Below are positions 444-14,867 of a DNA stretch of 17,971 nt, piece by piece. The notes below the pieces were generated by a model. The model did not search any database. It was not told the DNA's origin and was given only the letters and a program-made list of their open reading frames with translations. The stretch is from Oribacterium sp. (lineage in GTDB: Bacteria; Bacillota_A; Clostridia; Lachnospirales; Lachnospiraceae), in contig JAGAXP010000069.1 in the NCBI GenBank assembly GCA_017940955.1, positions 1 through 17,971 on the forward strand, in the 5' to 3' direction. Position 1 is the stretch's first letter; every line of letters begins with the position of its first letter. The position numbers were made by a program, and so were the translations under genes.

Positions 444-2096
444 TTATCCTACATCAAGGCAACTGCCACCGATGAACTCTCTAATAATAGAATTCTGAGG
501 TATCAACTCGGGGCTGATGGGGAGGATGTAGTCCAGGAATTTCAGGAGGCGCTTGGCTTCCTGGTATTCGGGGTCGGTGGGTTTTATCTGGAAGAGTAAG
601 GGGGCTGCGAAGATCTTCAGTACAGGGAGCTCGTAGATCATGCTGGAATTTACCATGACATCGGCGCTTTCCTGGTATGGGAAGATGTTCATGTTCTCGC
701 CTCTTCTCACGTTTTCCCACATTGCTATGGTATCCTTTGCTTTGTAGCCTCTGGTACGGTTGTCACGTACGATACGTCTCAGGAGACGGCCATCTGTTGT
801 TGGGATGCGGTTGTGGCTGTCAACATTGATCTGGGTCAGGGCTGAGATATAAATGCGGTATTTCGCATCAGCGCTTAATGCATAAGACATTTCGTCATTG
901 AGGCAGTGGATACCTTCGATGACCAGAACGTCATTTGCCTTCATTCTGCAGAAGTCGCCCTTATACTCTCTTTTACCAGTGAAGAAATTATATCTCGGAA
1001 GCTGTATGGTCTCACCCTCAAGAAGCTTCAGCATGTCGTTATTGAAAAGCTCCACATCAACACACTTTATGGATTCGAAATCCTTTTTGCCGTTTTCATC
1101 CTGGGGAGCAAGATCGCGGTCCCGGAAATAATTATCAACTGAAATAGGATGAGGGTTGAGACCCAAAGCTCTCAGCTGAATGCTTAAGCGTCTTGAAAAA
1201 GTGGTCTTTCCGGAGCTTGAGGGGCCCGCGATCATAACCATTTTTTTCTTCTTCTCTTCTATGTCCATTGCGATGTTTCCGATGGTCTTTTCGAAAAGCG
1301 CCTCCTGCATAAGGATAAGGTCATCAGAGTGACCGTCCACCACCATTTCATTCAATGAACCTATACAGGAGCAGCCGATCTTTTTTGCCCACTTTGAGGA
1401 GGTCTGCTGAACGTTATAGAGCTTATCAAAGGGGACAAAATCCGTTATCTTATCGGGCTCCTGACGGGATGGAAGGAGCAATACAAACCCCTCTCCGTAC
1501 GGTATAAGATCATAGAACTTTATATAGCCTGTACTCGGAACCATGTAGCCATAGAAGTAATCCCTGAAGCCGTCCATGTCATAGACATTGACATTGGCAG
1601 TCATGCGGAAACGGAAAAGCTTTTCCTTACTGTGCATTCCAACCTTACGGAAAAAATCTCTGGCTTCGTTGGTTCTTATGGAGCTTTTTGTGATGGGGAT
1701 GTTCATCTCATGATAAACGTCCATCTGTTCCTTGACCTTTTTCAAAAGCTCGGGTGTGATTTCTACACCTCCGTTCAGGTGACAGTAGTACCCGCGTCCC
1801 AAAGTATAATCTACTATAACTTCGAAACCTTTTACGTCGGAGCATAGCTTATAGAAAGCCTTTAGCATCATAAAGATGGCTGAACGTTCATAGGTCATCT
1901 GGCCTATTTTTGACCTTCCGGTTATGAATTGTATATTCCCGTCTTCCTTACAGGGGTTAAAAAGCTCATACAATACGCTGTTAAATCTGGCAAGTAAGAT
2001 ATCTTCCTCGTACAGTGACTGGAATTCTTTTGCCATATCAAGAAAGGTTGAGCCTTCCGGGAACTCATAGGTATCTCCGTTTAATGTAATGATCAT
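444..2096 (-). CDS. TGS-domain nucleoside (uridine kinase-like) kinase
   Basis: A 550-residue fusion. The N-terminus (about residues 1-60, starting MIITLNGDTYEFPEG) looks like a TGS domain of the threonyl-tRNA synthetase type. It is followed by a region resembling the second additional domain of those synthetases, and then a C-terminal P-loop kinase of the uridine kinase/phosphoribulokinase family. The Walker A motif is GPSSSGKTT at residues 291-299 with Lys297. Further kinase-like signals are SVDNYF (substrate side), LVIEGIH (Walker B) and RRIVRDNRTRG (lid arginines). Proteins of this build and length are common in Clostridia and are annotated as nucleoside kinases; the exact substrate is not certain. 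I chose the ATG at 2096 because GGAG lies six bases upstream and the TGS domain begins there. The reading frame extends to a TTG at 2138, but that codon lies in the T tract of the upstream terminator. Confidence 0.88.
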   Translation of the reverse strand: MIITLNGDTYEFPEGSTFLDMAKEFQSLYEEDILLARFNSVLYELFNPCKEDGNIQFITGRSKIGQMTYERSAIFMMLKAFYKLCSDVKGFEVIVDYTLGRGYYCHLNGGVEITPELLKKVKEQMDVYHEMNIPITKSSIRTNEARDFFRKVGMHSKEKLFRFRMTANVNVYDMDGFRDYFYGYMVPSTGYIKFYDLIPYGEGFVLLLPSRQEPDKITDFVPFDKLYNVQQTSSKWAKKIGCSCIGSLNEMVVDGHSDDLILMQEALFEKTIGNIAMDIEEKKKKMVMIAGPSSSGKTTFSRRLSIQLRALGLNPHPISVDNYFRDRDLAPQDENGKKDFESIKCVDVELFNNDMLKLLEGETIQLPRYNFFTGKREYKGDFCRMKANDVLVIEGIHCLNDEMSYALSADAKYRIYISALTQINVDSHNRIPTTDGRLLRRIVRDNRTRGYKAKDTIAMWENVRRGENMNIFPYQESADVMVNSSMIYELPVLKIFAAPLLFQIKPTDPEYQEAKRLLKFLDYILPISPELIPQNSIIREFIGGSCLDVG

Positions 2097-2136
2097 AATA
2101 AACTCCGTTCGTGAATAGCTGTTAGTCTTGTTTTTC

Positions 2137-2173
2137 AAAAACAGGATTCCCCGGAAAGCTGCGGGAAATCCTG
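2137..2173 (-). terminator. Rho-independent terminator after the nif3 gene
   Basis: A 12-bp stem (2142-2153 with 2162-2173, one G-U pair in the minus-strand RNA) closes an 8-base loop. On the minus strand five T follow directly. It sits downstream of the nif3-family gene and just before the kinase gene, so it should end the dgt-dnaG-trmK-nif3 transcript. A weak promoter-like pair (TTGATC, 18 bp, TATACT on the minus strand, about 2207-2236) lies upstream of the hairpin. If it is used, the hairpin would act as an attenuator for the kinase gene instead. Confidence 0.8.
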
Positions 2174-2258
2174 GGACAGTTATTTCTATAGTAGTTTTTA
2201 AGATGTGAAGTATATTGCTCTCATGAAATCCGGATCAATAAGCGGAGACTATGAAAAA

Positions 2259-3131
2259 TCACAGGGCCCTGGCCGGAAAACGGTAGTAGTCCTTGACGAT
2301 GTCAGCCTCAGGAAAACTGTCTCTGAGGAAATTTCCGATATGCTCAACAAAGATGTGCTCCAGACCATAGTGTCCGGCATCGATGAGACTTACACCTTCT
2401 TCGTTAAGATCGATTCCTTCATGATGTCCCATATCACCGCTTATAAATGCATCAACATGAAGAGACAATACTTCTTTAAGCTCGCTTCTGCCGGAACCCG
2501 GACAGCAGGCGATAGTTTTAATTGGTGCCCCTGCGTCATAAAAGCTTACAAACGGAAGGTCAAATTTTTCCTTCACAAGCTGAGCCAGTTCATCACAGGT
2601 CATGACATTGGGAAGCTTTGCAACAAATCCGATGCCATATTCTTTTATTTCGACAGTATTTCCGGAATTATCAGTTACGAGCTCCGGGGCAGAAATGCTG
2701 AGACCTTCCGGGGTTCCGTTTTCGTTACCCACGGGAACATATCCTGTGGGGTCCATGATCTTGGATTTCTCGAAGCCAAGTGTCTCGCATACTATGTCTC
2801 CCATGCCTCCGGGACAGCTGTCATAGTTTGTATGCATAGAATAAACAGCTACATCGTTATGAATCAGATCCATGAGCTTGATTCCAAGAGCCGAGCTGTC
2901 ATTTATGCATTTGATTCCTTTAAAAATGATTGGGTGGTGAGTTACGAGCATGTCGCAGCCGGATTCAATGGCTTCACTGATTACATCCATGGTTGCGTCC
3001 AGTGCAACACATACTCTGAAAACCTCTTTGTCTCTTCTGCCCACAAGAAGTCCGGGATTATCCCATTCGCAGGCTGATGCCGGTGGTGCCAAAAGGTCAA
3101 GTCTGTCTGTAATATCCCCTACTGTTAACAT
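2259..3131 (-). CDS. Nif3-like dinuclear metal-centre protein (YqfO family)
   Basis: 290 residues, member of the NIF3/YqfO family (often labelled GTP cyclohydrolase 1 type 2 homolog), which forms hexamers with a dinuclear metal site. The family's metal-ligand motifs are visible in order: LVTHHP near residue 64, SMHTNYDS near 97, and the C-terminal ISGDMGHH and DAGHYGLEHI, which supply the late His and Glu ligands. Residues between about 130 and 200 form the variable insert found in the longer bacterial members. Its start overlaps the end of trmK by 7 bases, so the two are translationally linked. A trmK-nif3 pair downstream of dnaG is a known Firmicute arrangement. The biochemical function of the family is unsettled, so I give no gene symbol. 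Confidence 0.9.
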   Translation of the reverse strand: MLTVGDITDRLDLLAPPASACEWDNPGLLVGRRDKEVFRVCVALDATMDVISEAIESGCDMLVTHHPIIFKGIKCINDSSALGIKLMDLIHNDVAVYSMHTNYDSCPGGMGDIVCETLGFEKSKIMDPTGYVPVGNENGTPEGLSISAPELVTDNSGNTVEIKEYGIGFVAKLPNVMTCDELAQLVKEKFDLPFVSFYDAGAPIKTIACCPGSGRSELKEVLSLHVDAFISGDMGHHEGIDLNEEGVSLIDAGHYGLEHIFVEHIGNFLRDSFPEADIVKDYYRFPARAL

Positions 3132-6925: not shown

Positions 6926-6954
6926 AAAAAAATGCCGCCACTGAAGGGGCGGCA
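6926..6954 (-). terminator. Rho-independent terminator of the ilv-ridA operon
   Basis: TGCCGCC (6933-6939) pairs perfectly with GGCGGCA (6948-6954) around an 8-base loop. On the minus strand seven T follow (6926-6932). It begins 14 bases after the ridA stop codon and closes the branched-chain operon. Confidence 0.93.
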
Positions 6955-6967
6955 AGGTGAGTTTGAA

Positions 6968-7336
6968 TTACAGTTCTGCGATGGCTTCGATCTCGCATTT
7001 TACACCCTTTGGGATGTCCTTTACGGCGACGCAGGATCTGGCGGGGTTTGAGGTGAAGTATTTTGCGTAGACTTCGTTGAAGGCTGCGAAATCGCTGATG
7101 TCGCTGAGGAAGCAGGTGGTTTTTACTACTTTGTCCATGGAGCTTCCGGCAGCTTCTACGAGGCCTTTGATGTTCTTGCAGCTCTGTTCTGCCTGTTCAG
7201 CTATGGTTTCGGGTACGTTGCCTGTGGCGGGATTTACTGGGATCTGGCCGGAACAGAAAACGAGGTTTCCTACCTTCATAGCCTGTGAATATGGGCCGAT
7301 TGCTGCGGGTGCATTGCTTGTTGTTACTTTCTCCAT
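6968..7336 (-). CDS. ridA: RidA family enamine/imine deaminase
   Basis: 122 residues, full family length. RidA hydrolyses 2-aminoacrylate and the 2-iminobutanoate/2-iminopropanoate intermediates released by PLP dehydratases such as IlvA, protecting PLP enzymes from damage. Family motifs visible: IGPYSQA near residue 13, FCSGQIPVNP near 27, the active-site arginine in NPARSCV near 99, and the C-terminal KCEIEAIAEL with the conserved Glu. It starts 5 bases after the ilvN stop codon, with AAGGAG inside the end of ilvN as its ribosome site, so it is the last gene of the same operon. Sharing a transcript with threonine dehydratase fits the known role well. Confidence 0.95.
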   Translation of the reverse strand: MEKVTTSNAPAAIGPYSQAMKVGNLVFCSGQIPVNPATGNVPETIAEQAEQSCKNIKGLVEAAGSSMDKVVKTTCFLSDISDFAAFNEVYAKYFTSNPARSCVAVKDIPKGVKCEIEAIAEL

Positions 7337-7341
7337 GATAA

Positions 7342-7830
7342 TTAGTCTCCTTGTTCTTTTATCTTTGTTATCGCCAGGGTTCCGGTGCGGGCAAGTTCGA
7401 TGATGCGGATAGACTTGAGGGTGTCAAGGAACATCTGAACACGTTCGGGAGTATCACACATCTTTATGGTCATCATGGTCTTTGAAAGATCAATGATCCT
7501 TGCACCCATGATCTGGCAGTTTTCCATGATGTCTTTACGGTTGTCACGGTTATATTTTATTTTGACCAGTACCAGCTCCTGGGACAGGCCTTCGCTTTCG
7601 TCAAAGGTTTTGACTTTTATTATATCAAGCTTTTTGTTTAACTGTTTTTCAATCTGTTCAAGAGTCCGTTCGTCGCCGCTTGAAACGATGACCATGTTGG
7701 AAATGTTTTTATCCTCAGTTTCTCCAACTGTCAGTGAATCGATGTTGAAGCATCGTCTCCAGAAAAGACCTGCTACCTTTGCAAGTACACCCGAACGGTT
7801 TTCTACAAGACATGAATATATTCGTTTCAT
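7342..7830 (-). CDS. ilvN: Acetolactate synthase small (regulatory) subunit, full length
   Basis: 162 residues, the normal length for a two-domain IlvN/IlvH. The N-terminal ACT domain runs from residue 1 to about 75 (start MKRIYSCLVENRSGVLAKVAGLF, with the NRSGVL motif that helps form the valine site). The C-terminal domain (about 80-160) contains ELVLVKI and the MGARIIDLSKT segment. This subunit activates the catalytic subunit and makes it sensitive to valine. The frame reaches back to 7890, inside ilvB. The start at 7830 is favoured because GGAGG lies five bases upstream and because it gives the family N-terminus. It follows the upstream ilvB with a 10-base gap. Confidence 0.93.
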   Translation of the reverse strand: MKRIYSCLVENRSGVLAKVAGLFWRRCFNIDSLTVGETEDKNISNMVIVSSGDERTLEQIEKQLNKKLDIIKVKTFDESEGLSQELVLVKIKYNRDNRKDIMENCQIMGARIIDLSKTMMTIKMCDTPERVQMFLDTLKSIRIIELARTGTLAITKIKEQGD

Positions 7831-7840
7831 TCGGACCTCC

Positions 7841-9475
7841 TTAAGATATCTCAGATGGATCAACATCAACTTCCATAAGCACGGATTCATCCATCTTGAG
7901 GAATTCTTCCAGACCCGGATCGATGCTGTTGTTATTTGAAACTCTGATATATTTCATGCCATAGGCCTCAGCTATCTTGTCAAGCTCGGGGCTTCCGGAG
8001 AGATCCGTTACAGAGAATCTGTCATTGTAGGTGAAATGCTGATACTGTCTTACCAGTCCCAGCCATCCGTTTTTGATAACGGCGATCTTTACTGGAACAT
8101 TGTACTGGCGCATGGTGGCAAGCTCCATCATGCACATCTGGAAGCCGCCGTCTCCCACAACCGCAACAACCTGTTTTTTCGGAGCGGCAAGTTTTGCTCC
8201 CAGGGCTGCCGGTACGGAATAGCCCATGGTTCCCATGCCGCCGGAGGTGAAGAATTTGCCGTTTCGCATAACATAATTACCGCAGCTCCACATCTGATTC
8301 TGGCCGACATCAGCTACGTAGATGGCATCATCCTTCATTTTGGTGCTTAGCTGTATGATGAATTCTTCAGGTGTTACAAGCTCAGACTTTCTCACTCTTT
8401 CAAGCAGATTCTTGAGCTTTTTGTCTTCTGATTCCTTTTTGTAGGTTTTTAATATATCAACCCATTCGTGATAATCAGCATCGTTTTTCTGTTGATTGAA
8501 TTCTTCGAAAACGCTGGCTATGTCACCAACCAGAGGGATCTCGGGACCTGCATTTTTACCTATTTCCGCAGGGTCTACGTCGATATGAACCAGGGTTTTG
8601 TTTTCTGTGATGAGATCAGGCTGGCTGATGGATCTGTCCGCAACTCTTGCACCTACCATGATGATCATATCAGCTTCATTCATGGCTCTGTTTCCGTAAG
8701 AGTTTCCGTTATTGCCCACCATTCCGAAGAACATGGGATCCGAGGTTTTCATTACACCGATTCCCATCATTGTGCAGACAACCGGGATACGGTTTTTATC
8801 TGCAAAGGTACGGACTGCTTCTTCTGCTGCAGCGAGGTGAACACCGCCACCCACACAGATTATAGGCTTTTTTGCATCCTTAAGTCTTGCGAAGACTTTC
8901 TTTATCTGAACGGCATTACCCTTGACCGTCGGACGGTAGGTACGAAGCTTTGCCTCCTCAGGGTAATGGAAATTTTTAATCTCCTCTTTCTGGATATCTA
9001 TAGGGATGTCTATGAGAACAGGTCCCCGTCTTCCGGAGCTTGCGATATAAAATGCCTCCTTCATGATTCGGGGAATTTCCTTTGAATCTCTTACGATATA
9101 AGAATACTTGACAAAGGATTCGCAGGCACCGCAGATGTCAGCCTCCTGGAACACATCCGAACCCACCAGGTGACTGTTAACCTGCCCGGTTATGACAACT
9201 ATGGGGATACTGTCAGCAAAAGCTGTTGCTATTCCGGTGATGATATTGGTTGCACCGGGCCCCGAGGTAACCGCAGCAACTCCGACTTTTCCTGTGGTTC
9301 TGGCATAGCCATTGGCCGAATGAGCAGCATTCTGCTCCTGACGAACAAGTATGGTTTTAATGTCGGTGTCCAGGATGCTGTTGAAGAACGGAGCGATAGC
9401 AACTCCGGGATATCCGAAAACGTATTCAACCTGTTCCTGCTCAAGACATTTAACTAAAGCGTCTGCACCTGTCAT
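7841..9475 (-). CDS. ilvB: Acetolactate synthase large subunit, second copy (Tyr at the substrate-specificity site)
   Basis: 544 residues, catalytic thiamine-diphosphate subunit that condenses pyruvate with a second 2-oxoacid. The N-terminal pyrimidine-binding domain has the catalytic Glu in VRQEQNAAH and the SGPGATN motif. The FQEAD glutamine is present, the FAD/central domain includes GARVADR, and the C-terminal ThDP domain has GDGG with Asp442 and the metal-site Asn at KN (469). The position that is Trp in most synthases (Trp586 in yeast, Trp464 in E. coli isozyme II) is Tyr478 here (VRQYQ). That residue governs preference for 2-oxobutanoate and sulfonylurea binding in studied enzymes. The copy pairs with the full-length ilvN downstream. 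The ATG at 9475 has GGAG ten bases upstream. Confidence 0.92.
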   Translation of the reverse strand: MTGADALVKCLEQEQVEYVFGYPGVAIAPFFNSILDTDIKTILVRQEQNAAHSANGYARTTGKVGVAAVTSGPGATNIITGIATAFADSIPIVVITGQVNSHLVGSDVFQEADICGACESFVKYSYIVRDSKEIPRIMKEAFYIASSGRRGPVLIDIPIDIQKEEIKNFHYPEEAKLRTYRPTVKGNAVQIKKVFARLKDAKKPIICVGGGVHLAAAEEAVRTFADKNRIPVVCTMMGIGVMKTSDPMFFGMVGNNGNSYGNRAMNEADMIIMVGARVADRSISQPDLITENKTLVHIDVDPAEIGKNAGPEIPLVGDIASVFEEFNQQKNDADYHEWVDILKTYKKESEDKKLKNLLERVRKSELVTPEEFIIQLSTKMKDDAIYVADVGQNQMWSCGNYVMRNGKFFTSGGMGTMGYSVPAALGAKLAAPKKQVVAVVGDGGFQMCMMELATMRQYNVPVKIAVIKNGWLGLVRQYQHFTYNDRFSVTDLSGSPELDKIAEAYGMKYIRVSNNNSIDPGLEEFLKMDESVLMEVDVDPSEIS

Positions 9476-9585: not shown

Positions 9586-10794
9586 TCAGGGTCTGGTTAT
9601 GAGTTTGAAGCCTTCCTCCACAAACTTCTGGCGGATTGCTTCGATATGCTCGAAGTTTCTTGTCTCCATCTGGAGAGTGAGGTAACAACCGTTGATGTCT
9701 GTTCCCATGGAGATGGAATTATGATCAACCTTTGTGACATTGGCACCCATGGATGCAACGATGTGTGAAACCTCTTCAAGCTGACCCGGCTTGTCCAGAA
9801 GCTCTATAGTGAGGTCGGCCTTTCTTCCGGTCTTGATGAGACCGCGGTTTATAACTCGTGAAAGGATGTTAACGTCGATGTTTCCTCCTGAAACCACGCA
9901 TACTACCTTCTTGCCGGCTACAGGTATCTTGTTAAAAAGCACAGCGGCTACGGAAACTGCACCTGCACCCTCTGAAACCACCTTTTGTTTTTCCATAAGT
10001 GTGAGGATTGCGGCAGCTGTCTCATCATCTGTAACTGTTACGATCTCATCCACATACTTGCTTACCATGTCGTAAGTTACATCACCGGGACACTTTACAG
10101 AGATACCGTCTGCAAAGGTGTGAACAGTCTTAAGAGGCTCGATCTTCTTGTTCCTGATAGCTTCAGCCATGCTTGGAGCACCCGCTGCCTGAACACCGTA
10201 TACCTTACAGTTAGGGTTCAGTTTTTTAACAACGAAGCTTACACCTGAAATGAGTCCGCCGCCTCCGATGGGAACTACAACTGCATCGGCATCCGCAAGC
10301 TGGTCGCAGATCTCCATACCGATGGTTCCCTGACCGGCAATGACATCAATGTCATCGAAAGGATGGATAAATACAGCACCTGACTCCTTCTGATATGCAA
10401 CAGATGCTGCATAGGCATCGTCATATACACCGTCTATCATGCGGACTTCGGCACCAAAGCTCTTTGTGGCTTCAACCTTTGAAATAGGCGCGATGGCAGG
10501 AAGGAAAATTGTTGATTTGATTCCTGCTCTCTGAGCTGCAAGCGCTACGCCCTGTGCATGATTTCCGGCAGAACAGGCAACAACTCCCTTTGTCTTCTCT
10601 TCCGGGGAAAGGGTTGAGATTTTGTAGTAAGCACCTCTTATCTTGAAAGAACCTGTATTCTGAAGATTTTCAGCCTTCAGATAAAGGTCGCAGCCTGCAT
10701 CGATTCTGGTTGCGTGTACAAGTTCGGTTTTGTTGATGACAGGCTTGAGTACATGTGCTGCCTGGTATACGCGGTCTAGTGTAAGTTCGTTCAT
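9586..10794 (-). CDS. ilvA: Threonine ammonia-lyase with C-terminal ACT domain
   Basis: 402 residues. PLP enzyme that converts threonine to 2-oxobutanoate and ammonia, the first step to isoleucine. The PLP lysine is in TGSFKIRGA (about Lys51), the phosphate-binding loop is PIGGGGLISG near residue 180, and CSAGNHAQGVA near 76 is the family motif. A single ACT domain occupies about 328-402 (DLTIELLDKPGQL onward). It is therefore shorter than the E. coli biosynthetic enzyme with its two ACT-like domains, and longer than catabolic TdcB, which has none; the single-ACT form is common in Firmicutes. Lying between two synthase gene sets and upstream of ridA supports a biosynthetic role. A GGGAGG lies 11 bases before the ATG. 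Confidence 0.94.
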   Translation of the reverse strand: MNELTLDRVYQAAHVLKPVINKTELVHATRIDAGCDLYLKAENLQNTGSFKIRGAYYKISTLSPEEKTKGVVACSAGNHAQGVALAAQRAGIKSTIFLPAIAPISKVEATKSFGAEVRMIDGVYDDAYAASVAYQKESGAVFIHPFDDIDVIAGQGTIGMEICDQLADADAVVVPIGGGGLISGVSFVVKKLNPNCKVYGVQAAGAPSMAEAIRNKKIEPLKTVHTFADGISVKCPGDVTYDMVSKYVDEIVTVTDDETAAAILTLMEKQKVVSEGAGAVSVAAVLFNKIPVAGKKVVCVVSGGNIDVNILSRVINRGLIKTGRKADLTIELLDKPGQLEEVSHIVASMGANVTKVDHNSISMGTDINGCYLTLQMETRNFEHIEAIRQKFVEEGFKLITRP

Positions 10795-10966: not shown

Positions 10967-11221
10967 TTAGTCTTCCTTGAATTCTGTTCTCAGGTCAACC
11001 TTTCTGATATCATACAGTTTTTCAAGCTGTGAAATAACCTGAGTTCTCATATAGTCGTCTCCTGTGGAAACGATCTCTATCTTGGTTACACCGGGAACAT
11101 CTGTCGGGCCGGCGTGGATCGTCTCGATGTTATAGCCTCTTTTTGAGTAAAGACCTGTAATTCTGTTAAGCACACCGAAACGATTATTTACCCAAAGATC
11201 AATGATAAATTTCTCTTCCAT
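10967..11221 (-). CDS. Short ACT-only acetolactate synthase small subunit (IlvM-like)
   Basis: 84 residues, about half the length of the ilvN product at 7342-7830 and similar to E. coli IlvM. It consists of one ACT domain: the first strand IIDLWVNN, the NRFGVLNRITGLYSKRGYNI segment corresponding to the regulator-binding loop, and the strand VTKIEIVSTGD. The C-terminal domain of IlvN/IlvH is missing altogether, and no frameshifted remnant is seen after the stop. CGGAG lies six bases before the ATG. It is placed 100 bases after the first ilvB, so it is probably the partner of that catalytic subunit; this pairing is inferred from order. Confidence 0.88.
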   Translation of the reverse strand: MEEKFIIDLWVNNRFGVLNRITGLYSKRGYNIETIHAGPTDVPGVTKIEIVSTGDDYMRTQVISQLEKLYDIRKVDLRTEFKED

Positions 11222-11321: not shown

Positions 11322-12980
11322 TTAATCTTTAAGGATAATGCTCTTAATGGACTTTCCTGGCGGGATCATAGGAAGAACCTTTTCATCCTCGCTTATATGA
11401 CAGTCTATAACGAAGGAGCCAGCCGGTTCTTTATCGGTCTCTTCCAGTACTTTCTCAAGCTCTTCAAGAGTTGATACAGAATAACCCTTTGAGCCGAAGG
11501 CATCCGCAAGGGCTGCAAAGTTGGTTTTTCTTGCGAGAGTAGTCTGAGAATATCTGCCTTCGTAGAAAATGCCCTGCCACTGACGTACCATGCCGAGAAC
11601 ATTGTTATCAAGAATCACTACGGTAATAGGAAGCACCTGGCTTACCACTGTACAAAGCTCATTCAGATTCATACCGAAGGAACCTTCTGAGGTGAAAAGA
11701 ACTGTCCTCTTACAGCCTGAACCGATGCAGCCTCCGATGGCTGCGCCGAGACCGTAACCCATGGTTCCGAGACCACCTGAGGTAAGTAAGGTACGGGGCT
11801 GTTCAAAATCGTAGAACTGTACCGTCCACATCTGGTGCTGCCCTACATCGGTAGCAACGACTGTGTCATCCTGAACATGTTTTCTGACAGTTTCAATGAT
11901 GTTTTTCGGACAGAACTCTCCGGGACGATCCGGGATTCTGGTCTTCTTGAACTCTTCAACCTCTTCTCTCCATTCCTTGTGGCGAACACCCTGGATATCC
12001 TTGAGAAGATCCTGAAGGATACCCTTGATCTCACCCTGGAGACAGACATCGGGGCTTACATTCTTTCCGAATTCAGCCTTGTCTATGTCAATGTGAATGA
12101 CGGTACATTTTCTTGTGTATTCACCGATATCTCCCGTTGCACGGTCTGAGAATCGCACACCGATGGCCAGCATCAGATCACATTCTGACTGAGCCTTTGT
12201 GGCTGCGTACTGTCCGTGCATTCCGCACATTCCCAGGTTATATTCGTAGGAATCGGGGATTGCTGTTCTTCCCATCATACTGAGACCTATCGGCGCATCC
12301 AGTCGGTGTGAAAGCTCCAGAACCTCTTTTTCCGCACCTGATGCGAGAACACCGCCGCCGCAATATATGAATGGTCTGTGGCAGTTTTTTATGGCCTCCA
12401 AAGCAGCTTTCTTTACGTAAGGAACCTTTGGCTTATCCGGCATACGGGGGACAACTGCGATTCCGTACTCACACATATCGGTCTGGACATTCTTTGGAAT
12501 ATCTATAAGTACAGGACCTTTTCTTCCGGAGTTTGCGATGAGAAACGCTTCCTTGATGGTCTGCTCCAGTTCATGGACAGAACGTACCATGAAATTGTGC
12601 TTTACCACCGGCTGGGTGATACCCACAATGTCTACTTCCTGGAAACTGTCACGGCCCAGAGCATTGACGGAAACATTACCGGTGATAGCAACCAGAGGAA
12701 CCGAATCAAGGTTTGCATTGGCAATTCCGGTAACAAGATTGGTGGCACCCGGACCGGAAGTTGCGATAACTACTCCGGTTTTGCCTGAGGCTCTGGCGTA
12801 GCCGTCAGCCGCATGGCAGGCGCCCTGCTCGTGAGCTGTTATGATATGGTTGATCCTGTCACTGTTTTTATACAGCTCGTCATAGATGTCGAGAACTGCG
12901 CCTCCGGGATAACCGAACACGGTATCAACGCCCTGCTTGACAAGTTCTTCGATCAGAATCTGTGCTCCCTTTAATCTCAT
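11322..12980 (-). CDS. ilvB: Acetolactate synthase large subunit, first copy (Glu in place of the GDG Asp)
   Basis: 552 residues, thiamine-diphosphate catalytic subunit. The catalytic Glu is in TAHEQGACH, SGPGATN follows, then FQEVD and the central-domain GVRFSDRATG. The Trp that favours 2-oxobutanoate is kept (VRQWQ, Trp468). The ThDP/Mg motif is abnormal: where the family has GDG, this protein reads SEG (Ser431-Glu432-Gly433), so the metal-binding Asp is Glu. The spacing to the Asn ligand (DNN, Asn459) and to Trp468 is normal, and the rest of the protein shows no decay. AGGAG lies 7-8 bases before the ATG. First structural gene after the leader-peptide attenuator; followed by the short small-subunit gene. 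Confidence 0.93.
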   Translation of the reverse strand: MRLKGAQILIEELVKQGVDTVFGYPGGAVLDIYDELYKNSDRINHIITAHEQGACHAADGYARASGKTGVVIATSGPGATNLVTGIANANLDSVPLVAITGNVSVNALGRDSFQEVDIVGITQPVVKHNFMVRSVHELEQTIKEAFLIANSGRKGPVLIDIPKNVQTDMCEYGIAVVPRMPDKPKVPYVKKAALEAIKNCHRPFIYCGGGVLASGAEKEVLELSHRLDAPIGLSMMGRTAIPDSYEYNLGMCGMHGQYAATKAQSECDLMLAIGVRFSDRATGDIGEYTRKCTVIHIDIDKAEFGKNVSPDVCLQGEIKGILQDLLKDIQGVRHKEWREEVEEFKKTRIPDRPGEFCPKNIIETVRKHVQDDTVVATDVGQHQMWTVQFYDFEQPRTLLTSGGLGTMGYGLGAAIGGCIGSGCKRTVLFTSEGSFGMNLNELCTVVSQVLPITVVILDNNVLGMVRQWQGIFYEGRYSQTTLARKTNFAALADAFGSKGYSVSTLEELEKVLEETDKEPAGSFVIDCHISEDEKVLPMIPPGKSIKSIILKD

Positions 12981-13235: not shown

Positions 13236-13271
13236 AAAAAAATAACCTTGCAGTTGTAAAGCTGCAAGGTT
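13236..13271 (-). terminator. Attenuator terminator of the ilv operon leader
   Basis: On the minus strand AACCTTGCAG (13262-13271) pairs perfectly over 10 bp with CTGCAAGGTT (13244-13253) around an 8-base loop, followed by TATTTTTTT (T run 13236-13242). It lies 18 bases after the stop codon of the leader ORF and 255 bases before ilvB. A competing structure exists: AGCTTTACA (13255-13263), which spans the loop and the end of the 5' arm, is the exact complement of TGTAAAGCT (13305-13313) in the last codons of the leader ORF. CAGG (13298-13301) can also pair with the arm at 13265-13269. That is the layout of a terminator/antiterminator switch. Confidence 0.85.
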
Positions 13272-13289
13272 TAAAAGCGCGTCATGACT

Positions 13290-13391
13290 TTATATCTCCT
13301 GAAAAGCTTTACACAAATAAGCATTATTGCTAATGACAATAATGTTCACGAGAATAATAATGACTGCTAGTACAACACTGTAATTATTCAT
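13290..13391 (-). CDS. Branched-chain amino acid leader peptide (attenuator)
   Basis: A 33-codon ORF. Residues 6-20 read VVLAVIIILVNIIVI: 13 of 15 codons are Ile, Val or Leu. The tail (SNNAYLCKAFQEI) is ordinary and encodes the antiterminator segment. It lies between a good promoter and a strong terminator, upstream of ilvB-ilvA-ilvB-ilvN. Known leader peptides of ilv operons in Enterobacteria have the same design. A ribosome stalled on the Ile/Val/Leu codons would leave the antiterminator segment at 13298-13313 free, whereas a ribosome reaching the stop at 13290 would cover it. The ribosome site is weak (AAAGG at 13 bases, purine-rich AAAGAAG nearer). An in-frame ATG at 13412 would add seven residues but lies only about 10 bases from the predicted transcript start. 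A small membrane peptide is the alternative. Confidence 0.78.
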   Translation of the reverse strand: MNNYSVVLAVIIILVNIIVISNNAYLCKAFQEI

Positions 13392-13428
13392 GCTTCTTTG
13401 CGTGCCTTTCATTAAAATATATAAAACA

Positions 13429-13457
13429 ATTATGACTTTCTAAGTACGGCATGTCAA
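13429..13457 (-). promoter_or_regulatory. Leader promoter of the ilv operon
   Basis: On the minus strand a perfect TTGACA (13452-13457), a 17-bp spacer and CATAAT (13429-13434, five of six). The predicted start is near 13422, giving a leader RNA of about 187 bases that ends at the T run of the attenuator. Confidence 0.8.
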
Positions 13458-13463
13458 CAATCA

Positions 13464-13496
13464 ATAAGTTATAAGAGCTATGCTATAAGTTATAGC
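13464..13496. promoter_or_regulatory. Two ATAAGTTATA repeats upstream of the ilv promoter
   Basis: ATAAGTTATA occurs at 13464-13473 and 13485-13494, exactly 21 bp apart (two helical turns) and ending 6 bp before the -35 box. Each copy is itself dyadic (ATAA-G-TTAT). The distal copy extends to a 15-base palindrome, GCTATAAGTTATAGC (13482-13496). This has the layout of a tandem operator for a dimeric regulator. It does not resemble the CodY consensus. Confidence 0.5.
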
Positions 13497-13547: not shown

Positions 13548-14867
13548 TTATGGTGAGGCAGTCTTTCCCGGATTCAGGGAATTAATGAACTGCTGTGCAA
13601 CTCTTCCGGTGTGGCCACCCTTTCTCACGGACCAGACATTGGCAGCGGCAAGAAGCTCCTTCTCCTCCATATCGATGTGATATTTCTTTGCAAGATTGAT
13701 GACTATCTGCCGGAATTCCTGCATGCTTGGTTTGGTGTACAGGATGTTGAGACCAAAGCGGTCCACAAGAGACAGCTTCTCTTCCAGGGTGTCGGAGTGG
13801 AATACATCTCCGCCTACTCCCATATCGTCACGGTCCTTTGTGTTTTCCTTTATGAGATGACGGCGGTTGGAGGTGGCATAAATCAGGATGTTGTCCGGTT
13901 TTGTTTCGAAGCCTCCTTCGATGACTGCCTTAAGGTATTTGTATTCGATCTCGAAATCCTCAAAGGAAAGGTCATCCATATAGATGATGAACTTATAGTT
14001 TCTGGTCTTGACCTTTGAAATCACGTATGAAAGATCCTTGAACTGATGCTTGTAGATCTCGATGAGTCTGAGACCCTTAGGGTAAAACTCGTTGAGGGTT
14101 GCCTTGATGGTTGTGGACTTTCCGGTCCCGGCATCGCCATAGAGAAGTACGTTGTTGGCACTCTTCCCTTCCACAAAAGCAAGGGTGTTGTCATAGACCT
14201 GCTTCTTCTGCAGTTCATATCCCACAAGGTCATCGTAGTTTACAGACTCCAGGTTGTTGATAGGGATAAGCTCAGGAGAACCGTCAATATTATTTCTGAT
14301 ACGGAAAGCTTTATTGAGACCAAACATTCCGACGCCGTAGTTTTCATAGTATTCCGAGATGGCATCATAAAAGCGCTCCCGAGTACCGGCCGAGAGAAGT
14401 CTGACCTTCAGAGAGTTTACGGTTTTTGAAATGTAGCTGTAATACATTCTCTCGTGCTTCTGCACAGCCTTATAGGACTGCAGCTTTTTCATACAGCTGA
14501 TCCCAAGCTTCAGTTCAAGGAAGGAGAAATCATAATGAATCAGGTCCATAAGATACCGGCAATCTCCGAGAGCTATCTCGGAGGCGGAGCCTCTTGGAAT
14601 CACACTGTTTTCGGAAACCAGAGCAAGAGGATTTTCATCATTCATGATGAGAAAGCTAATGTAGGCTGCCCAGAGATTCTCAGTGAAACCGTACTTTGTT
14701 GCAGTCTCCATGATGTAGTGAACCTCATCCAGGCACTCCGAAAGAAGCTCCTGAACAGACTGCTCCTCATTGTATCTCAGGAGATTCTCCGCTTTCGCCA
14801 GAGTTCTCAGAGTCCGGTCATGTTTTACATTGTTGTATAAGATGAGATGGTCAAGTATTTCAAGCAT
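13548..14867 (-). CDS. DUF815-family AAA-type ATPase
   Basis: 439 residues. The C-terminal two thirds match the DUF815 family of P-loop ATPases: Walker A GDAGTGKST at 244-252 (Lys250), Walker B FIIYMDDLSFED, a sensor-like ATSNRRHL, an arginine-containing DRFGL segment, and a helical lid ending GHTGRVAQQF. The N-terminal 200 residues are mostly helical and specific to this family's longer Clostridial members. No membrane segment is seen. Cellular role is unknown in the family. GGAGG lies six bases before the ATG. It is separated from ilvC by a terminator and from the ilv leader by its own 3' region, so it is probably transcribed on its own or by readthrough; a link to branched-chain synthesis is not supported beyond position. 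Confidence 0.88.
   Translation of the reverse strand: MLEILDHLILYNNVKHDRTLRTLAKAENLLRYNEEQSVQELLSECLDEVHYIMETATKYGFTENLWAAYISFLIMNDENPLALVSENSVIPRGSASEIALGDCRYLMDLIHYDFSFLELKLGISCMKKLQSYKAVQKHERMYYSYISKTVNSLKVRLLSAGTRERFYDAISEYYENYGVGMFGLNKAFRIRNNIDGSPELIPINNLESVNYDDLVGYELQKKQVYDNTLAFVEGKSANNVLLYGDAGTGKSTTIKATLNEFYPKGLRLIEIYKHQFKDLSYVISKVKTRNYKFIIYMDDLSFEDFEIEYKYLKAVIEGGFETKPDNILIYATSNRRHLIKENTKDRDDMGVGGDVFHSDTLEEKLSLVDRFGLNILYTKPSMQEFRQIVINLAKKYHIDMEEKELLAAANVWSVRKGGHTGRVAQQFINSLNPGKTASP

Follow-up and report, generated by a model that had tools for sequence, protein, structure and literature searches.

In enterobacteria, the ilvGMEDA and ilvBN operons of branched-chain amino acid (BCAA) synthesis are preceded by attenuators which combine a BCAA-rich peptide of about 32 codons, a terminator and an alternative pairing, the leaders concerned being those named ilvL and ivbL, respectively. 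Enterobacterial BCAA leader peptides of 32 residues containing 15 and 11 BCAAs are on record (PMC6123439). In Gram-positive bacteria, the same sources give experimental evidence of ribosome-mediated BCAA attenuation in Staphylococcus aureus and Listeria monocytogenes, with predictions for Lactococcus lactis and streptococci (PMC6123439, PMC5794164). The leucine-rich attenuator of S. aureus ilvD (ilv-leu) has BCAA codons and a terminator and is conserved in its genus; for its antiterminator, pairing with the poly-U tail has been proposed, and the dominant repressor there is given as CodY (PMC5794164). Motifs in which a BCAA-rich upstream ORF precedes ilvB, together with a terminator and an antiterminator, are described as ilvB-II from Corynebacterium, as ilvB-OMG from various phyla and from Leptospira (PMC10272879, PMC11109978). 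The histidine attenuators of Peptostreptococcaceae, Erysipelotrichales and the B. cereus group are also ribosome-mediated, in Firmicutes without HisR, but concern histidine rather than BCAAs (PMC9413887); histidine leaders are given for Bacillus (PMC2965389), and a candidate aroF upstream ORF for Acholeplasma (PMC8632094). Clostridial ilv and leu T-box leaders, by contrast, serve the same pathway and are terminator-based, but sense the tRNA directly. It is to such T-boxes and to CodY that control of the ilv genes in the Lachnospiraceae is usually assigned.

The window considered here, by which is meant the whole stretch of 17,971 nucleotides that was analysed, originates from Oribacterium or a very near relative (Lachnospiraceae). 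Its first acetolactate synthase large subunit, IlvB1, is 96% identical to that of Oribacterium sp. WCC10 and 65% identical to that of O. sinus, and the nearest genome, G001, has 98% identity across the leader region; the genus set searched comprises 17 genomes, the window's own assembly lying outside it. On its minus strand, the window carries what is, with a probability that we put at about 0.92, a ribosome-mediated (leader-peptide) transcription attenuator controlling the operon ilvB1-ilvN1-ilvA-ilvB2-ilvN2-ridA. The likeness to the enterobacterial ilv attenuators considered here is one of architecture, and the gene order differs; moreover, the first pairing segment of the Oribacterium leader lies in the ribosome-binding region, such that its pairing also covers the start codon, unlike in the enterobacterial leaders. 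Set against S. aureus, the Oribacterium antiterminator takes the 5′ arm and loop of the terminator, and a search that detected CodY in its two controls, B. subtilis and L. lactis, found it in none of the 17 genus genomes. The Corynebacterium, Leptospira and ilvB-OMG motifs belong, as far as their descriptions go, to other lineages. An initial reading made from the sequence alone had treated the Firmicute setting as exceptional for this kind of control, which holds only in part, BCAA attenuation being known from S. aureus and L. monocytogenes (PMC5794164, PMC6123439). The mechanism is therefore a classic one that is already known in Gram-positives, and it is the distribution that is notable: among the literature matches listed, a set which leaves most subscription literature outside its scope, no report deals with leader peptides of ilv or aroF genes from either Lachnospiraceae or Lentisphaerota.

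The elements of the leader follow one another along the minus strand. A sigma-70-type promoter (TTGACA, 17 bp, CATAAT; 13457-13429) matches the consensus at 11 of 12 positions and would start transcription near 13422; the -35/-10 pattern is present in most of the relatives aligned. On direct reading, a likely Shine-Dalgarno sequence, AAAGG (13405-13409), stands at a spacing of 13 nt from the start codon, which is long and typical of the window's clade, stronger versions being found elsewhere (GGAGG in L009, AAGGAGG in L025). The leader peptide ORF (13290-13391), conserved in the genus, has 33 codons and a stop and encodes MNNYSVVLAVIIILVNIIVISNNAYLCKAFQEI; in its control codons, 6-20 (13332-13376), 13 of the 15 are for Ile, Val or Leu, all six Ile codons being ATT. 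Such a run is more than a product of chance: among ORFs of 15-65 codons, those in which 13 or more of 15 codons are for Ile, Val or Leu number one in the window and three in 1.15 million strand-bases of 80 ilvB loci, where two of the three are ilvB leaders. The intrinsic terminator (13236-13271), with 10 perfect pairs at 13271-13244 and the tail ATTTTTTT with its 7-T run, is placed as in an attenuator, that is, 3′ of the ORF and 5′ of the structural genes. Promoter, codon run and terminator are all as the sequence-only reading had described them.

The leader RNA (13424-13236) folds at -52.1 kcal/mol, with z = -4.74. In its minimum free energy (MFE) structure, which is the ribosome-free fold, segment 1 at the 5′ end of the leader (13390-13411) pairs with segment 2 (13300-13324), and the terminator, formed by segments 3 and 4, stands alone. 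The alternative is a pairing of the antiterminator strand within segment 2 (13313-13298) with segment 3 (13255-13268), the 5′ arm and loop of the terminator. In this regard, the 9-bp complement proposed earlier, TGTAAAGCT (13313-13305) with AGCTTTACA (13263-13255), is exact on direct reading, but the antiterminator is longer, gaining four further pairs between 13301-13298 and 13268-13265. Similarly, the 8-bp hairpin over the last control codons (13322-13344; 13344-13337 with 13329-13322) is exact, but the main structure opposing the antiterminator is the long 1:2 pairing, which had been missed. As a candidate for the main protector the hairpin was rejected, since none of its pairs changes on both sides: 99% of its cells are paired, with one-sided (G-U) changes only, and codon constraint alone could keep it. 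A pairing of the 1:2 type is found in the MFE structures of all 11 genus loci folded, a count that reflects folding and not covariation; in the ten loci other than the window an upstream segment holds segment 2, at least partly, and for L009, L134 and L145 the segment in question falls within the ORF. Two other leaders, L251 and L253, lack the 1:2 pairing in their MFE structures. Within the window's clade, the start codon and Shine-Dalgarno sequence are inside the 1:2 pairing, which suggests that ribosome loading would have to be co-transcriptional.

The first gene 3′ of the attenuator is ilvB1 (11322-12980, minus strand, as are all the genes that follow; TIGR00118, 671.5 bits), encoding an acetolactate synthase large subunit. 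Behind it come ilvN1 (10967-11221), an 84-residue ACT small subunit (TIGR00119, 66.6 bits against a cut-off of 56.9); ilvA, threonine ammonia-lyase (9586-10794; TIGR01127); ilvB2, a second acetolactate synthase large subunit (7841-9475; TIGR00118); the small subunit gene ilvN2 (7342-7890; TIGR00119), the real start of which may be near 7830 because its TIGR00119 match begins at residue 21; and a ridA-like enamine/imine deaminase gene (6968-7336; TIGR00004). By our own terminator rule there is a minus-strand terminator at 6933-6954, probably the end of the operon, and no other between 13244 and 6954, so that the six genes would appear to form a single transcript and a single attenuator may govern two acetolactate synthases together with threonine deaminase. 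Between ilvC and the leader sits a DUF815 ATPase gene (13548-14867). The gap between the terminator and ilvB1 was considered as a part of the switch and rejected: it differs or is absent in relatives, and its stretch 13132-13060 recurs elsewhere in five genus genomes (L012-L014, L017-L019, L021, L023). This stretch looks, therefore, like an interspersed repeat; by eye, it is tandem-like in L016.

Within the genus, 13 of the 17 genomes carry the leader directly upstream of ilvB. DNA similarity finds it in 10 genomes, with a partial eleventh (L011) in G015, and direct reading of the regions upstream of ilvB adds G003, G004 and G009; the search model R1 matches 14 of the 17 at E 0.1 or better, 13 of these matches adjoining ilvB. 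In the exception, G015, the leader (L222) precedes a small ACT gene with no more than weak similarity to the small subunit gene ilvN, and the genome has no ilvD match and only a distant ilvB. A distant ilvB (30-36% identity) is likewise all that G017 has, G016 has no ilvB match, and G012 has an ilvB of another type (51% identity) with no leader upstream. The leaders aligned include those of O. sinus DSM 17245 and of strain WCC10. The core of the peptide in the genus is SVIIILVNIIVI. Towards the end of the run, 12 of the 13 genus leaders in alignment A2 (all but L145) and all six leaders from other genera (L228-L231, L233, L239) share an Ile-Ile pair. Because this pair is the most constant part of the run, isoleucine is most likely the dominant regulating amino acid. 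L016, L007 and L008 have an additional base 3′ of the control codons, which puts the rest of the ORF in another frame: the peptide then ends in AFFV, and TAA within the GTAAAGC of segment 2 serves as the stop codon, the RNA of this segment staying as it is elsewhere. In other words, what is kept is the RNA and not the tail of the peptide; a ribosome releasing at this stop codon would sit on segment 2.

Alignment of the regions upstream of ilvB, a check that the sequence-only reading had proposed, also shows covariation in both of the competing helices. Among 13 genus leaders, 12 of them distinct, the terminator (3:4) has 100% of its cells paired, against 28-55% in slid controls, and both sides have changed in 6 of its 10 pairs; for the antiterminator (2:3) the values are 91.7%, against 22-53%, and 7 of 10. 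For both helices, none of 500 shuffles reaches four of the five measures, the fifth being the number of pair types, in which 344 (terminator) and 359 (antiterminator) of the 500 shuffles are as high. As an example, where the window has GTAAAGC:GCTTTAC, both L009 and L025 have GTAACGC:GCGTTAC, and L145 has GTTGCAC:GTGCAAT. Across seven genera, nine distinct antiterminator 8-mer pairs, registered by hand, are paired at 63 of 72 positions, and 9 of 20000 permutations are as good. Over a wider set of 16 non-redundant leaders from Clostridia and Lentisphaerota, complementarity between segment 2 and the terminator arm exceeds that of dinucleotide shuffles (Fisher p = 1.4e-6), single loci often being weak (p of 0.62, 0.53 and 0.48 in L154, L030 and L025); against foreign segments, a leader's own segment ranks first in 4 of 16 (binomial p = 0.015) and 12th to 14th in three. 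A second set of 10 Ile/Val/Leu leaders, with L222 dropped from an original 11 as having no terminator by our own rule and with the control-codon end misplaced in L239, gives Fisher p = 0.076.

The mechanism that these features suggest is as follows. In the absence of a ribosome, segment 1 would pair with segment 2 and the terminator would form. With ample charged tRNA for Ile, Val and Leu, a ribosome would reach the stop codon and cover segment 2, and the terminator would again form. If charged Ile, Val or Leu tRNA were short, the ribosome would stall within codons 6-20 and open the 1:2 pairing, whereupon segment 2 could pair with the 5′ arm and loop of the terminator and RNA polymerase could enter the operon. 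Translation of the ORF, ribosome stalling and the response of the operon are what we infer here. The attenuation model usually assumes that no pairs form across the ribosome; folding was done with all RNA 5′ of the ribosome front blocked and with RNA polymerase just past the terminator loop. In this blocked model, the antiterminator has its full 13 pairs with the ribosome at codons 1-22, which include every control codon from V6 to I20; the pair probability of the segment 2 core is at least 0.99 with the ribosome at codons 6-23, drops to about half at codon 24 and does not exceed 0.02 from codon 25 onward, three or four outer pairs lingering to codon 27, and without a ribosome the 1:2 pairing and the terminator form. 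Once pairs across the ribosome are permitted, the partial transcript forms the antiterminator at only 5 of 34 positions (codons 1-3, 21 and 22), and the full-length transcript keeps the terminator at all 34. The expected stall geometry, in which the control codons free segment 2 and release at the stop codon covers it, is thus obtained in the model only with the RNA 5′ of the ribosome barred from pairing. Under this proviso the folding fits, and together with the conservation, the covariation of both helices and the ilvB synteny it supports the earlier proposal that stalled translation at Ile, Val and Leu codons would open the operon.

Other readings of the same region have to be weighed. The ORF might encode a stable, hydrophobic small membrane protein with a function of its own, the terminator merely ending its mRNA; indeed, the product is 33 residues long and strongly hydrophobic, it has its own promoter motif and terminator, and its core is conserved in the genus. 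A conserved protein sits poorly, however, with the frame shift by which L016, L007 and L008 change or lose the C-terminal part over the same underlying RNA, with an antiterminator that covaries with the terminator loop, with the adjacency to ilvB in 13 of the 14 genus genomes that have a model match, and with the non-homologous Ile/Val/Leu peptides found at the same place in other Clostridia. We regard this reading as highly improbable. A different matter is whether the product of termination, an RNA of about 187 nt, or else the peptide, might in addition affect other BCAA or transport genes in trans, an action of this kind having been described for some tryptophan attenuators. By the z-score given above, the terminated RNA is well folded, and a plentiful supply of amino acids would make it abundant; such an action is compatible with attenuation in cis, the two not being exclusive, and we consider it unlikely.

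It could also be supposed that a T-box, a ppGpp riboswitch or another ligand- or tRNA-binding riboswitch controls the operon and that the ORF is incidental. T-boxes are certainly at hand: there are matches in all 17 genus genomes, above the cut-off in 16, the scoring having covered part of the first-look candidates in several genomes (75 of 114 in G001). In other Clostridia, T-box motifs lie upstream of ilvB in at least 7 of 80 and at least 5 of 30 loci, which are lower bounds because our own pattern missed T-boxes ahead of ilvD in G004 and G010 that Rfam finds. Moreover, G012, the sole genus genome with a biosynthetic-type ilvB and no leader, has a T-box (88.8 bits; gathering score, 93) before ilvA, a DUF815 gene and its different ilvB, all on one strand (L259). 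Against this, Rfam 15 has no family at gathering score anywhere in the window, and the T-box or other riboswitch considered there was rejected on that ground, in agreement with the sequence-only reading, which had found no T-box consensus. Nor, in 20 ilvB loci, does any family match the ilvB leaders or the region up to 2 kb upstream of ilvB, the hits in these loci being two T-boxes more than 2 kb upstream, which belong to another gene (leuA in L056), and one tRNA; no listed T-box lies shortly upstream of a leader-bearing ilvB. Riboswitch control of the operon is, on this evidence, scarcely credible, and the leader-peptide attenuator is the reading retained in what follows. The conserved leader family is itself absent from the RNA family library searched, Rfam 15.

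Both kinds of sensor do, however, serve the one pathway within the genus. A match to ilvD above the family cut-off is present in 14 of the 17 genomes. In G004 and G010, where the leader stands before ilvB, ilvD is preceded by a T-box and then by a putative transporter gene, which we take to be of the BASS type; on our own reading of the alignment, the specifier is AUC (Ile). In G005, G007 and G012, a T-box on the strand of ilvD is 3.4-3.5 kb distant from it on the upstream side, and in G009 a second Ile/Val leader (L181 / L223; MVQEHNFTITSVIIILINVIAVVCNNVSFALPDSRS, with a terminator and the pairing GCGTTAC:GTAACGC) stands before a small ACT gene and ilvD. The other eight ilvD genomes have no leader within 1.5 kb and, among the matches listed, no T-box near ilvD. 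Two rows with an ORF plus terminator, L195 and L196, are both downstream of ilvD and were taken as chance; L196 has a hairpin, ggggacggttctc, and the window has a like one, a large GC-rich palindrome 3′ of a terminator, at 16196-16154. At 11 genus loci of leuA, where the leuA matches are below the family cut-off, there is no leader or T-box pattern. Outside the genus, Ruminococcus locus L056 carries a T-box, leuA (2-isopropylmalate synthase, 800.9 bits), a leader and ilvB in a row (656-3001), an order that L076 shares by eye.

Beyond Oribacterium, model R1 matches 11 of 299 genomes of the family and model R2 16 of 397. Nine of the 16 have an Ile/Val/Leu leader followed by ilvB (G001, G002, G426, G626, G665, G676, G679, G453 and G757, the last with no terminator by our own rule), such that homologous leaders precede the same ilvB subtype in six Lachnospiraceae genera besides Oribacterium. 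In G467, of a seventh genus, ilvB follows directly downstream of a match which is itself cut by the contig end; the remaining six comprise three leaders of 3-deoxy-7-phosphoheptulonate (DAHP) synthase and three unexplained matches. IlvB at five of the leader loci (L228, L230-L233) is 66-69% identical to that of the window, whereas the usual Lachnospiraceae types listed, like the IlvB of G012, reach 46-50%, and hence leader and IlvB subtype seem, from these identities, to travel together. In the class, R2 matches 10 of 391 genomes: G001; G089 and G165, of another family, with a leader directly before ilvB; DAHP-synthase leaders in G106 and G132; a leader before a GerA gene in G179; and four unexplained. 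Locus L249, from a genome with 6% contamination, has an Ile-rich leader belonging to this family (1477-1632; R2 E 2.2e-11) and then, in place of an ilv gene, a GerA spore germination gene. Loci with no Ile/Val/Leu leader before an ilv gene were not counted (L224-L227, L235-L237, L244-L246, L248, L252, L254, L255, L257, L258), L227 being the opposite strand of the G005 leader; L247 is cut by a contig end.

Leaders without homology to this family have the same arrangement. Among the 80 ilvB loci examined, a non-homologous Ile/Val/Leu ORF with a terminator lies upstream of ilvB in L026-L030, L039, L052 and L056, and L076 is a weaker homologue of L039 and L056; L028 is from the isolate Oligosphaera ethanolica and L027 from a Lentisphaerae metagenome-assembled genome. 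L027 has a pair of Ile/Val leader ORFs in tandem ahead of a single ilvB, and each of the two has a terminator to itself (2575-2960). In the class, ilvB is present in 199 of 391 genomes; the best 30 of these 199 loci include 8 with a leader (L148, which is that of G001, L150, L152 and L154-L158, L155 being the same record as L052), at least 5 with a T-box motif and 17 with neither. In a tree of IlvB with 84 rows, a single clade of 34 (SH-aLRT 100) takes in all 14 leader rows, of which L025 and L135 are identical, together with 6 of 7 T-box rows; the Lachnospiraceae rows other than Oribacterium fall outside it. Each label needs three changes on this tree, two of them forced by well-supported branches; as we read the tree, there may have been several sensor exchanges within one IlvB lineage.

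The R1 and R2 matches also brought out, in Lachnospiraceae and other Clostridia, Phe/Tyr-rich ORFs before a terminator upstream of DAHP synthase (L234, L242, L243, L250 and L256, those of L242 and L256 read by eye), for example MTQNRFFNFFFFAFTGFTFCTVRSCRCD. Their complementarity gives Fisher p = 0.025 over the five, L242 alone having p = 0.97, and they are leads rather than results. No DAHP synthase of the TIGR01361 type is present in the 17 genus genomes. Taking the leader loci together, it is more probable than not that ribosome-mediated attenuation is widespread and largely uncatalogued in gut Clostridia, that it has been exchanged repeatedly with T-boxes, that it covers aromatic (DAHP synthase) as well as BCAA synthesis, and that single genomes (G004, G010, L056) split one pathway between both sensors.

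The overall picture is that the leader described here adds a covariation-supported BCAA attenuator family in the Lachnospiraceae, a major family of the mammalian gut. R2 provides a search model for genomes which show at this position a bare 5′ UTR or a hydrophobic small ORF. Furthermore, the genus is a natural comparison, having one pathway under T-box and leader, sometimes in the same genome, and the question of why one sensor of tRNA charging replaces another is therefore testable.
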